Virus record (IMG/VR): IMGVR_UViG_3300042889_001421
Coordinates: 1-30,239 of that record
DNA from: a virus
Strand: one strand, 5' to 3'
Length of the DNA: 30,239 nt
Positions 26,215-30,239 of this stretch are shown here, piece after piece (the first letter of the stretch is position 1; each line of letters opens with the position of its first letter). The notes beneath the pieces are model-generated. The model ran no database searches. It was not told the DNA's origin and worked only from the letters and a program-made list of their open reading frames with translations. The position numbers and the translations under genes were made by a program.

Positions 26215-27072
26215 ATGAACCCAACCAAAGACCAAATCAAAATCTGGCTCAAGCATCCAGACCGCAACAGAGCGTGGCTTGCCGATGCGTGCAGAGTCGC
26301 AAAAATAACTGTCGATCGTTGGTTATCCTCCTCTATCGACGTGCCGCCAAAACAACTGATCCGGATTGCCCAGCTTATGGCCGCGCCAGAGGAAAAGCCC
26401 CCGGTATCCAAACCCGTCGAATCGGTGCTCGTCATCAAAACCACGCCCGAAGAAAACGAAGCCTGGTCAAAAGCCGCTCTCGCCAAGGGGCAGATCCTTG
26501 CCGATTGGGCCATTACCGCCATCCAGTCAGTCTACCAAGCAGAGCAGGAAGAAACCCAGCACATCATCGCGCGCTCTTCCATCCCTCCCCTCGCCTCCCA
26601 TCCCTCTCACTGGATCGACCTCTGCGGCGGCATCGCTGCCGGTTCGCCGATCTCCAGCGACGCTCCCCACGAGCCGATTCCCGTGGCTAACGCTTACCCC
26701 ATCGACTGCTATGCGCTCCGCGTCTTCGGTCACTCCATGGAGCCAAAAATCGCCGATGGCTCGACCATCGTCGTTCAGCGGCTCACAGCAGGAAACCACC
26801 CCAAGCAAGGGAAGTTCGTCGTCTACTCCGATGCTTACGGCCTCAGCCTAAAGAAACTCGCCTACCGCAAAGCCAAGGCGGGAGAGGAAGCCAACAGCCT
26901 CGGCAAGGTCGCCATCCTCGAATCCACCAACCCGGATTTCCCCGAAGTCCAGACCATGGACGGCGGCCGCATCGAGGCCGTCTTCGTCGCGTCCATCAGC
27001 CCGGAAAATATCCTCTCGCCCATCACCCTTGTCCCTGATTCAAAAATCCCTTCTGTCGAAAAACAGGCTTGA
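26215..27072 (+). CDS. S24/LexA-type phage repressor with two DNA-binding regions
   Basis: 285 aa, divergent from the leftward operon. Residues 10-55 form a HTH-like segment (WLADACRVAKITVDRWLSSS), residues 70-108 a second DNA-binding candidate of ribbon-helix-helix look (SVLVIKTTPEENEAWSKAAL, then AKGQILADWAITAIQ, as in CopG/Arc proteins), and residues 135-270 the S24 domain: cleavage site Ala142-Gly143 (GGIAAGSP), Ser174 in FGHSMEP and Lys213/Lys214 in SLKKLAY. Self-cleavage stimulated by the host RecA filament would induce the prophage. The start codon is preceded by half operators, suggesting autoregulation. The middle domain is unusual for a repressor of this class. Confidence 0.85.
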   Translation: MNPTKDQIKIWLKHPDRNRAWLADACRVAKITVDRWLSSSIDVPPKQLIRIAQLMAAPEEKPPVSKPVESVLVIKTTPEENEAWSKAALAKGQILADWAITAIQSVYQAEQEETQHIIARSSIPPLASHPSHWIDLCGGIAAGSPISSDAPHEPIPVANAYPIDCYALRVFGHSMEPKIADGSTIVVQRLTAGNHPKQGKFVVYSDAYGLSLKKLAYRKAKAGEEANSLGKVAILESTNPDFPEVQTMDGGRIEAVFVASISPENILSPITLVPDSKIPSVEKQA

Positions 27073-27306
27073 GCGTTCGACCCGTCCAATCCCCCCGTTT
27101 CCACACCCATCTAGCAGCCTCTCAGCCTCTCAGCCTCTCAGCCTCTCAGCCTCTCAGCCTCTCAGCCTCTCAGCCTCTCAGCCTCTCAGCCTCTCAGCCT
27201 CTCAGCCTTAAAGTTGGATAAAATCGCAAAAAGCAAGCTCAATGTTCTGCCATTTTTCCGCAGAGGCTGCAAATCCTGTGATCCCCGCTTCAACTAGCCG
27301 CGCACC
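27073..27306. other. Intergenic region between repressor and integrase
   Basis: 234 bp without a supported gene. It contains the 8-bp array (27115-27208), an AT-rich stretch with TTGGATAAAATC (27214-27225) that could include the integrase promoter, and TGATCCCCGC (27279-27288), a weak relative of the GTGGTCCCCG motif. No clear terminator for the repressor is visible. Confidence 0.6.
27115..27208. repeat. 8-bp tandem array CAGCCTCT, 11.75 copies
   Basis: Eleven perfect copies of CAGCCTCT and one partial copy (CAGCCT) in direct tandem. The unit is not a multiple of three and no plausible gene crosses it. Perfect identity points to recent slippage expansion, and copy number is likely to vary between isolates. 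It separates the repressor and integrase genes. Confidence 0.95.
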
Positions 27307-28482
27307 ATGGCAAATTACACCGTCAAATCAGGCTCTGTAACGATCGAGGTCAAACCATGGACTCATCCATCGGGCCGCTCCTACTGGCGCGCCACCTACC
27401 ACTGCCCGATCACCCACAAGCGCCGGTCAGTCACCCGCGCCGTGCTGGCAGACGCGAAGGAGGCCGCCTTCAATGCGGCAAAGTCCATTGCCACGGGAAC
27501 CTTCAACCTCAATGATCTCGCCCCCAACGTCGTCAGCGCGCTGCGCCGCCTGTTGGAAGTGGACCCGCAGCTGGCACTCGTCGACGAGTTCCTAACATGG
27601 AGATCCAAGGCCAAGCCCGAGAAGCCATGCCCCGAAGCCGTCGACGAATTCATCGCTATCAAAAAAGCTAACCAGGGCAACTCCACCCAAAACGTCAAGA
27701 CCCTCAAAAAGCACCTCGAACCCATCGCCCTTCGTTTCGCGGACTGCTCGCTGGCCTCCATCACCGTTTCTCAGATCGAAAGCCACCTCTCGGCCAATCC
27801 GAAACACAGCAACCGCACCCGCCGCAACGTGCGCGCCTCCCTCGTCACCTTCTTCCGCTGGTGCCGATCCATGGGTTATCTTCCAGAAGGCGAGACCGCT
27901 GCCGAAAAAACCAGCACCCCCATCGTCGCCGACAGCATCCCCGAAACCTACCAACCGGAGCAACTGCGGACGCTACTCGACAACGTCAATCCCGAGTTCC
28001 TGCCGTGGCTCGCCACCGCCGCCTTCGCCGGTGTCCGCACCGATGAGATTTCCCCCATTCCCGGCAGCAAAAAAAGCCCGCTCGATTGGTCTGATTTCAA
28101 ATGGGAGCGCGACCTCATTATCATCCGGCCTGAAACCGCCAAGACCAAGCGCCGCCGCGTCGTCCCCATCCTGCCCGCCCTCCGCTCGTGGCTCTATGAA
28201 ATCAAACGCGATTCCGGCCCGATCCACCAAACCCACGCCCCCACCAAACGCGGAAAAGGCAAAGACGCCCAAGCCGAGACCGTCCGGCTCGGCACCCTCA
28301 TCGGTGGATGGAAATCCAACGCCATCCGCCACAGCTTCATCAGCTACCGCGCCGCCATCGTCAGCCTCGGCCAAACCGCCATGGAAGCTGGCAACTCCGA
28401 AGCCGAAGCCAAGGCCAGCTACAACGACGCCAAGGGAGCCGACGAGGCCGAAGTCTGGTTTTCACTGCTAAAAACGAGGTAA
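27307..28482 (+). CDS. int: Tyrosine-type integrase
   Basis: 391 aa. N-terminal arm-binding part (1-100), core-binding SAM-like domain (about 105-205) and catalytic domain (about 215-391). Catalytic positions aligned by spacing with lambda Int: Arg244 (AGVRTDE), Lys279 (TAKTKRR), Asn338 (SNAIRHSF; usually His), Arg341, Asn363 (AGNSEA; usually His/Trp) and Tyr372 (ASYNDAK). The Arg341-Asn363 and Asn363-Tyr372 distances equal the lambda values of 22 and 9. The Asn-x-x-Arg variant is one I associate with PVC-group integrases. Located beside the predicted attP, downstream of the repressor on the same strand. Confidence 0.93.
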   Translation: MANYTVKSGSVTIEVKPWTHPSGRSYWRATYHCPITHKRRSVTRAVLADAKEAAFNAAKSIATGTFNLNDLAPNVVSALRRLLEVDPQLALVDEFLTWRSKAKPEKPCPEAVDEFIAIKKANQGNSTQNVKTLKKHLEPIALRFADCSLASITVSQIESHLSANPKHSNRTRRNVRASLVTFFRWCRSMGYLPEGETAAEKTSTPIVADSIPETYQPEQLRTLLDNVNPEFLPWLATAAFAGVRTDEISPIPGSKKSPLDWSDFKWERDLIIIRPETAKTKRRRVVPILPALRSWLYEIKRDSGPIHQTHAPTKRGKGKDAQAETVRLGTLIGGWKSNAIRHSFISYRAAIVSLGQTAMEAGNSEAEAKASYNDAKGADEAEVWFSLLKTR

Positions 28483-28550: not shown

Positions 28551-28642
28551 TTTGAGAACATTTGAGAACATTTCATGCCTCGGTTTTGCCCGTTTCTATC
28601 AGATAGTTGTTAGAAATCTGCTAGTGTTCTCGGAATGTTCTC
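28551..28642. repeat. Cluster of GAGAACA/TGTTCTC elements (possible integrase arm sites)
   Basis: Direct repeat TTTGAGAACA at 28551-28560 and 28561-28570, then the reverse motif TGTTCTC at 28625-28631 and 28636-28642. Each pair has a 10-11 bp period, one helical turn. A further TGTTCTC lies at 28819-28825 on the other side of the core. Such phased sites flanking a core are the usual layout of integrase or excisionase arm sites. Confidence 0.6.
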
Positions 28643-28751
28643 GTTTTCGTAAATCCGCCACGGAGTAGGACGCATTCTTGTTTTTCACAATCCTTTGATT
28701 TTTCAACATTTCGCGTCCTCGCGTCAAACAGGCGGAGACCCATCAGACGGA

Positions 28752-28771
28752 TTCGACTCCCCTCGCCTCCA
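28752..28771 (+). other. attP core candidate: 3' end of a tmRNA or tRNA-Ser gene
   Basis: TTCGACTCCCCTCGCCTCCA has the T-loop (TTCGACT), the 3' T-arm strand (CCCCT), a 7-nt acceptor strand (CGCCTCC) and discriminator A of an RNA gene. The acceptor strand is that of tmRNA or tRNA-Ser types (GGAGGCG or GGGGGCG partner). The 5' T-arm strand just before it is not complementary, as expected if the phage carries only the end of the gene. Location 269 bp after int supports an att core. Confidence 0.7.
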
Positions 28772-28802
28772 CTCTTTCAACTGCTGATTACCAATTAGTT
28801 AC

Positions 28803-28840
28803 AAAAGGTGTTCCCCGATGTTCTCAGGGAGCACCTTTTT
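28803..28840 (+). terminator. Rho-independent terminator after the att core
   Basis: AAAGGTGTTCCC (28804-28815) pairs with GGGAGCACCTTTTT (28827-28840) around an 11-nt loop, forming a 12-bp stem with one G-U pair, and ends in a run of five T. It is 32 bp past the core. In the prophage it would end the reconstituted host RNA gene; it also isolates the downstream small gene. Confidence 0.88.
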
Positions 28841-28925
28841 ATTGAGGCAATCATTCGTTGGAATCCATCAAGAAGCTGGTTTGATTTTGGATGGACAAAA
28901 ACCCAGAAAAACAGGACATTCGGCC

Positions 28926-29373: not shown

Positions 29374-29685
29374 TTACGCCCAGAAAACGTTTGGCGCGGT
29401 GATGTATTCCGCGTCGATCTCGACACGCGCACCGAGGCCGCCAAGTGCCGCGATGATGTCCGCGAACTCGGGGAAATCCTTCGGGCTCATCACCGGCGAT
29501 CCGAGCAGCGGCGTGTCCATGATCGCATCGTCGCATGGGATAAATGTTTTGCCTTCATGTTCGCCGCTAAATATAGGGCATAATCCGGGCAACCAAAAAA
29601 CGGGAAGTCCGCGATCAATCTGCGCCTGCGCCACCGCGTCGTTAGCCGCTTGCGCTTGCTGAGGTGTTGTTACAAATCCGATCAT
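29374..29685 (-). CDS. Last gene of the leftward operon: small protein (103 aa)
   Basis: 103 aa starting with MIGFVTTPQQAQAANDAVAQ (ATGA overlap on the tail gene stop). Helical N-terminus, a Cys/Pro-rich middle (FWLPGLCPIF, KTFIPCDDAI), then DFPEFADIIAALGGLGARVE, a helix-turn segment. Following the tail genes it may be a fibre chaperone, a tail accessory or a lysis-timing gene; no family is recognised. No terminator is visible behind it before the convergent gene. Confidence 0.65.
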   Translation of the reverse strand: MIGFVTTPQQAQAANDAVAQAQIDRGLPVFWLPGLCPIFSGEHEGKTFIPCDDAIMDTPLLGSPVMSPKDFPEFADIIAALGGLGARVEIDAEYITAPNVFWA

Positions 29686-30239
29686 GGCAAGGTGAGTCCG
29701 GTGCAGGTTTCCCAGAGGGTTTTGAGGTCTAGCGTAAATCTACTCGCCTGATCGTCGTCGATTCCAGCCATTGCCCCATATAGGCCAAATCGTGAATTCG
29801 ACCTGAATATCCCCTCACCATTCAGCGCTGTTGCCCACATGGTCTTCGTAGAAAGCACAGGGGCGCTTTGAGTCGTGTTGATGGTTGATTGCAACAACCC
29901 GCTCGCCCGTCGCACAAAAGCACGCTGTCTTGTTTCGCTAGTCCTAGAAATTAAGTGCAATCCAACATTCCCAATGTTTGCGACGCCCGAGGTAGACGAC
30001 GCGGAAATACCTGTAATCTGGCCGTTACCCCCTGTATTATGCATGATTCCGGTATGCCTAGTATTGTTCCCATCACGCACGCCGATCATGCCAGCGAATG
30101 AGTTACTCGGGACCGTCGTAATAAGCGAGAAAAGGCATCCTTGCTGGGCAGTTATTCCAAGCCCGGCGGCGGTTGAATTTAAGCTGAAAACATTTGATAC
30201 TCCATCGCCCTGAATATAGCCGCTGGCATGGGTTGTAGT
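29682..30239 (-). CDS. Phage tail/receptor-region protein, C-terminal part (start at 270 across the junction)
   Basis: This is the rest of the gene that begins at 270. After the junction it reads TTTHASGYIQGDGVSNVFSL, then a beta-rich domain with ...GMIGVRDGNNTRHTGIMHNTG... and ends ...DLKTLWETCTGLTLP. The Gly/Asn/Thr-rich, strand-forming composition suggests a lectin-like or jelly-roll receptor domain (concanavalin-like folds have similar text), not an enzyme. An internal Met at 30089 gives a 135-aa start, but the frame is open and meaningful further upstream, so this is not the true start. AT-richer than the main genome. Confidence 0.78.
   Translation of the reverse strand, partial: TTTHASGYIQGDGVSNVFSLNSTAAGLGITAQQGCLFSLITTVPSNSFAGMIGVRDGNNTRHTGIMHNTGGNGQITGISASSTSGVANIGNVGLHLISRTSETRQRAFVRRASGLLQSTINTTQSAPVLSTKTMWATALNGEGIFRSNSRFGLYGAMAGIDDDQASRFTLDLKTLWETCTGLTLP
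30225..30239. repeat. Terminal overlap, copy 2 (circular junction)
   Basis: Exact copy of bases 1-15; joining here restores an open reading frame of about 270 codons. Confidence 0.9.

Follow-up and report, generated by a model that had tools for sequence, protein, structure and literature searches.

Restoration of the target gene is textbook behaviour of elements that integrate into tDNA, and in phage lambda the tI/sib terminator lies downstream of int across attP and is separated from int by integration. An attP that carries the end of its target gene and restores that gene on integration is well known, and tmRNA is an ordinary target. In the Islander study by Hudson, Lau and Williams (PMC4383910), tRNA or tmRNA genes are given as the target of about 30-50% of integrative islands, the attP holds the restoring fragment of the target gene, and tmRNA is a more enriched target than any tRNA type. 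In E. coli the presence or loss of the CP4-57 prophage at ssrA alters tmRNA, and its loss deletes one ssrA base (PMC10107115). In Streptococcus pyogenes M1 the speA prophage is inserted between the two terminators of ssrA, and speA is driven by transcription reading through from ssrA (PMC9951164). In KplE1 attL the arm-type sites of IntS overlap the int promoter (PMC2951348). Since integrating elements are known to favour tmRNA, the core that we describe below is ordinary. The apparent superposition of a terminator hairpin on a pair of arm-type-like sites is the less usual part of the finding; no title or abstract opening in the open-licence literature was found to describe arm sites inside a terminator, which is no proof of absence.

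We analysed the whole of IMG/VR record IMGVR_UViG_3300042889_001421 (30,239 bp, hereafter the window), whose opening 15 bases are the same as its closing 15 bases. The features of the locus are listed in Table 1. Like the islands and prophages of Islander, the window phage combines a tyrosine integrase, a target fragment in attP and restoration of the target; it differs in having a P'-arm terminator-like hairpin, as the main text of that paper contains no occurrence of "terminator" and no P'-arm terminator (PMC4383910). It would share ssrA as prophage target with CP4-57 (PMC10107115), but unlike CP4-57 no change in tmRNA is predicted here because the core matches the 3' end of the host gene in every base. 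The S. pyogenes speA phage disrupts the second host terminator, whereas the window phage brings its own (PMC9951164). As in KplE1, the arm-type-like sites lie on the same DNA as a transcription signal, but that signal is a promoter in KplE1 and a putative terminator here, and int flanks the core from the opposite side (PMC2951348). The window sites lie downstream of int and do not overlap an int promoter in the KplE1 manner.

Table 1. Features of the attachment locus and neighbouring genes in the window. Offsets are relative to the core.
Feature	Coordinates	Strand	Basis and remarks
Repressor-like gene (temperate phage)	26215..27072	+	PHROG phrog_4 transcriptional repressor, E 3.9e-11
int, tyrosine recombinase/integrase, 391 aa	27307..28482	+	PHROG phrog_1 integrase, E 3.1e-20; int of the relatives L435 (72%) and G347:C6 (58%) likewise precedes an RNA-gene 3' end
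Two arm-type-like sites TGAGAACA, 10 bp apart	28553..28570	-	Inverted relative to the others; GAGAACA at offsets -198/-188
P-arm pair TGTTCTC, 11 bp apart	28625..28642	+	Offsets -127/-116; counterpart in virus record L435 at -126/-115
attP core = 3' end of tmRNA gene (T-loop, 3' T-strand, 3' acceptor strand, discriminator)	28752..28771	+	Exact matches and simulation
Intrinsic-terminator-like hairpin, stem 28803-28818 / 28824-28839, loop TGTTC, T-tract	28803..28842	+	Fold, stem comparison
P'-arm pair TGTTCCC / TGTTCTC, 10 bp apart	28809..28825	+	Offsets +57/+67; in 5' strand and loop of the hairpin
Small ORF just past the terminator, 112 aa	28926..29264	+	ATG 28926 by eye

Genes with PHROGs matches in the window encode portal, terminase, head protease, tail, RecE-like, repressor-like and integrase functions. 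This set, which includes a repressor-like gene and an integrase, indicates that the window is a temperate tailed phage; it is circular and looks complete, and its host is probably a member of the Verrucomicrobia. A sibling, IMGVR_UViG_3300047281_000160 (31,154 bp), is a circular permutation of the window and is collinear with it over most of its length in pieces of 78-97% identity, while the tail region near the window ends is replaced. The tail-side stretch that spans the ends (29402-30239 plus 1-229) is unmatched in the sibling, though both of its flanks are alike. Between the repressor-like gene and int, at 27115-27208, the window carries a perfect tandem repeat of CAGCCTCT. There are 11.8 copies in the window and 12.8 in the sibling (L121 4801-4902), thus the spacing upstream of int is variable. 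The program-listed start of the small ORF beyond the hairpin, 28818, falls inside the hairpin, and the 148-aa form of this ORF matched no Pfam or PHROGs family at 1e-3.

The integrase gave no Pfam family at E 1e-3 and no match among 50,697 phage records or among PDB sequences. The best five relatives in 386 genomes of the same order were G347:C6 (58%), G172:C11 (50%), G347:C62 (46%), G280:C64 (46%) and G131:C1 (45%). A tRNA-type 3' end follows int co-directionally, which is also the geometry of the window, in all of these except G131, where int is convergent with an intact tRNA-Asp; three of the four ends were recognized by eye and that of G172 via its repeat. The G172 prophage is complete: it has an intact tRNA-Ser(GGA), spans 36,100 bp, and its int lies at attR beside the second copy of a 30-bp repeat. 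Two virus records, L435 and L436, share the core of the window, and the L435 integrase is 72% identical. Phages L377 (5700-5745) and L378 (4720-4775), whose portal proteins are 95-98% similar, encode different integrases, and in them the tRNA-type 3' end lies upstream of int. G391 and G392 share structural genes with the window and carry other integrases, with other tRNA 3' ends upstream of int (by eye). The occurrence of other integrases and tRNA ends in near-relative phages shows that int and att are exchanged as a module.

We found that TTCGACTCCCCTCGCCTCCA (28752-28771, +), which starts 270 nt past the int stop, is exactly the 3' end of bacterial tmRNA (ssrA). An exact 20-mer scan of genome contigs gave at least 119 stretches holding at least 122 matches. 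ARAGORN called 92 of the 122 exact genome matches listed as tmRNA and one as tRNA-Ala, and left 29 uncalled. The sole tRNA-Ala among the matches listed (L219) is on a Bacillota contig and shares the same 3' end. Directly before the 20-mer stands CAGGGG, like the 5' T-strand of ssrA, in 115 of the 122 genome matches listed. Many of the core-bearing contigs among these matches belong to Akkermansiaceae and other Verrucomicrobia, and the exact core is present in 137 of 386 genomes of one Verrucomicrobia order. The initial annotation had placed the 3' end of a tmRNA or tRNA-Ser gene in an attP next to int. The RNA-gene end and the tmRNA assignment both hold, and the genome matches are RNA genes and not a protein gene. 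As the target, tRNA-Ser was rejected, since ARAGORN called it in none of the 122 matches listed, though a relative integrase uses tRNA-Ser.

To the left of the core the window has ATCAGACGGA, which does not pair with the 3' strand of the T-arm; ssrA genes carry GGACAGGGG at that place. The fold of 28722-28775 is no better than that of shuffled sequences (z 0.42), and the window contains no whole tRNA or tmRNA. Thus only the 3' end of tmRNA is carried, which agrees with the earlier reading that the 5' strand of the T-arm is unmatched. Since the 20-mer lies inside phage DNA in both the window and the sibling, the site is an attP and not a prophage end. An attL or attR identity was rejected, as the sibling is collinear on both sides. 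Among viral contigs, L008, L012, L036, L041 and others form a large group with truncated tmRNA 3' ends in near-identical contexts, and L027 looks like an attL that matches contigs of this type.

When the 5' part of a host ssrA was joined in silico to the right side of the phage, the simulated attL gave a full tmRNA with tag peptide in 5/5 hosts, and the reciprocal attR gave a full tmRNA in 0/5. This is the outcome that had been proposed, in which the host gene keeps its 5' part and gains the phage 3' end followed by the phage hairpin. The further proposal that the phage supplies a whole new 3' processing and termination context stands for the flank and the terminator, which do change; for processing it is too strong because the 3' end is letter-for-letter that of the host. 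No copy of this phage was found integrated, at ssrA or elsewhere, in the genome contigs searched; the anticipated ssrA junction was not recovered, nor was this exact phage seen as a prophage with a different core. A core or repeat at both ends was seen in other elements, namely the relative at tRNA-Ser (G172) and others at ssrA (G257, G130 and G288). The latter, roughly 15 to 46 kb long, occur in Verrucomicrobia and are bounded by an intact ssrA on one side and another copy of the core on the other, with core pairs at G257:C200 4199 and 37717, G130:C116 28952 and 74485, and G288:C154 12131 and 27485. In G130 an integrase relative adjoins ssrA.

Of the 10 copies of the heptamer TGTTCTC/GAGAACA in the window, five lie inside 378 bp around the core (binomial 7e-8; 0/2000 shuffles reach five). 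The +57 copy reads TGTTCCC in the window, and L435 carries TGTTCTC at both +57 and +67, without the hairpin. The inverted pair at -198/-188 is absent in L435. Since the offsets agree despite integrases that are 28% apart, the repeats are likely arm-type sites, and from their sequence and placement Int would be expected to bind them.

The hairpin is on the + strand like the core; it begins 31 nt beyond the core and 320 nt downstream of the int stop (28482). The stretch 28795-28846 folds to -21.9 kcal/mol (z -5.2; 0/200 shuffles as good), and as in an intrinsic terminator a G+C-rich hairpin is followed by a U-tract. The strong terminator in the same orientation named by the initial annotation is thus borne out as a terminator-like structure, which we infer would terminate transcription. 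A consensus terminator scan whose rules allow loops of 3-8 did not list it. We compared the 16 stem pairs over the sibling, the window and G347 and found 95.8% standard pairs, versus 44-58% when the strands were slid, with two two-sided changes. Since 49/500 shuffles match this figure and it comes from three sequences only, covariation gives mild support only. The count covers three of four sequences; the G172 hairpin was left out because it is about 1.5 nt out of register (loop TTCT versus TGTTC in the window). Between core and terminator, at 28784-28798, there is a small stem, CTGATT-ACC-AATTAG, and at the matching place G172 has CCCGTT-ACC-AACGGG (by eye).

A terminator-like hairpin follows within 110 nt in 59/108 distinct genome tmRNA ends (shuffled 1) but in only 4/31 distinct viral-contig cores with a truncated tmRNA, one of the four being the sibling (shuffled 1/31); flanks below 90 nt and duplicate flanks were dropped, and many of the viral flanks come from one group of similar contigs. 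In this sample, therefore, only a minority of the tmRNA attP-like sites have a phage-borne terminator. L435 has the same att anatomy and no terminator, and the tRNA-Ser attL of G172 has no U-tract hairpin, which indicates that the terminator is not required by this integrase family. A search of viral contigs with the hairpin pattern gave 17 matches, among which the sibling is the only att site. Like lambda tI/sib, the window hairpin is past attP and co-directional with int, which stops at 28482, ahead of the hairpin start at 28803. However, lambda attB is not an RNA gene, and RNase III retroregulation of int, as in lambda, would be conjectural for the window phage.

The pattern core-N35-65-TGTTCTC was found in 2/386 genomes, G347 and G172, and in both GTTCNNNNNTGTTCTC stands at +56 inside a U-tract hairpin right after ssrA. 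A simple count gives 0.001 expected sites of this kind in 137 flanks. These are also the genomes with the best integrase relatives, the motif and integrase comparisons having been made after the motif was seen. Beyond the element both have host-type genes, with no integrase relative and no prophage. Close relatives of G347 have other ssrA terminators, G347 and G172 fall in separate clades of a UvrD tree (flanks at hand for 12/20 tree genomes), and UvrD does not lie within 900 nt of the ssrA 3' end in 19 relatives. G347:C88 was considered as an integrated copy of the window phage and rejected, as the genes that follow there are UvrD (Pfam), an M20-type peptidase, LysA and a transporter (the last three by eye) and 0/27 window ORFs match.

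The element in G347 and G172 is possibly a phage scar. Either the P' arm of a phage stayed behind in them, or hosts of this kind were the source of the flank of the phage lineage. In the second case the phage would have copied core and terminator together from a G347- or G172-like host with a native ssrA terminator. It would fit that window 28749-28846 is 84% identical to G347:C88 over 99 bp, that both genomes have host-type genes and no phage genes downstream, and that the similarity ends right after the hairpin. However, the host pair is at +55/+65 versus +57/+67 in both phages, a chance match of the host loops to the phage arm heptamer would be needed, and the close relatives of G347 differ in their ssrA terminators, so that we regard copying from a host as unlikely, though a serious alternative. 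The phage-like offsets favour a P' arm left behind. That the P'-arm terminator of this lineage was twice left as a working ssrA terminator, in G347 and in G172, is a tentative reading to which we give somewhat less than even confidence; the similarity stops after the hairpin, the G172 hairpin is out of register, and the G347 ssrA is at a contig break (C177 and C88 share 55 nt).

It could also be argued that the inverted repeat does no more than bind Int or its directionality factor at the P' arm and is no terminator, as L435 retains both sites at the same offsets without the hairpin and the loop is identical in the window, the sibling and G347. We consider this improbable, since the stem reaches past the sites into AAAAGG/CCTTTT and on to a T-tract, two of its pairs are changed on both sides in G347, and the fold has a z of -5.2. 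That the 20-mer is a chance match or a tRNA fragment unrelated to integration is hardly credible, for although one tRNA-Ala (L219) has the same 3' end, the 20 exact bases adjoin the integrase and L435, with its 72% identical integrase, has the same core between the same arm pairs.

We think it likely that this temperate circular phage integrates at the 3' end of ssrA by its tyrosine integrase and that the P'-arm hairpin ends transcripts of int and later those of ssrA. Integration would split ssrA within the core. In silico, the host 5' part and the identical phage 3' end would rebuild an intact tmRNA at attL, and attR would keep only a fragment beside int. Judged from gene order, the hairpin probably ends int transcription in the free phage and ssrA transcription in the lysogen. 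With int reading towards it from 320 nt upstream, it is most likely the point where the int transcript ends in the free phage. After integration it would be parted from int and lie at attL, where it would end ssrA transcripts and shield the prophage genes from ssrA transcription; the small ORF would be the first phage ORF after ssrA. At attR, int would run into the former ssrA terminator of the host, and the int and ssrA units would thus exchange terminators reciprocally.

These observations are relevant because mobile elements are strongly enriched at tmRNA genes (PMC4383910) and, in S. pyogenes, leaky ssrA termination drives a prophage gene (PMC9951164). By carrying their own terminator on arm-site DNA, such elements may preserve both the RNA and their own silence. 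Possible competition between Int binding and termination on the same 17 bp is now a directly testable question. If the G347 and G172 elements are scars, then phages reshape the 3' ends of transcription units for housekeeping RNAs as well. In that case a recombination site of phage origin would have been domesticated as a termination signal for a housekeeping RNA, and one hairpin would have served int, then ssrA in the lysogen, and then the host alone.
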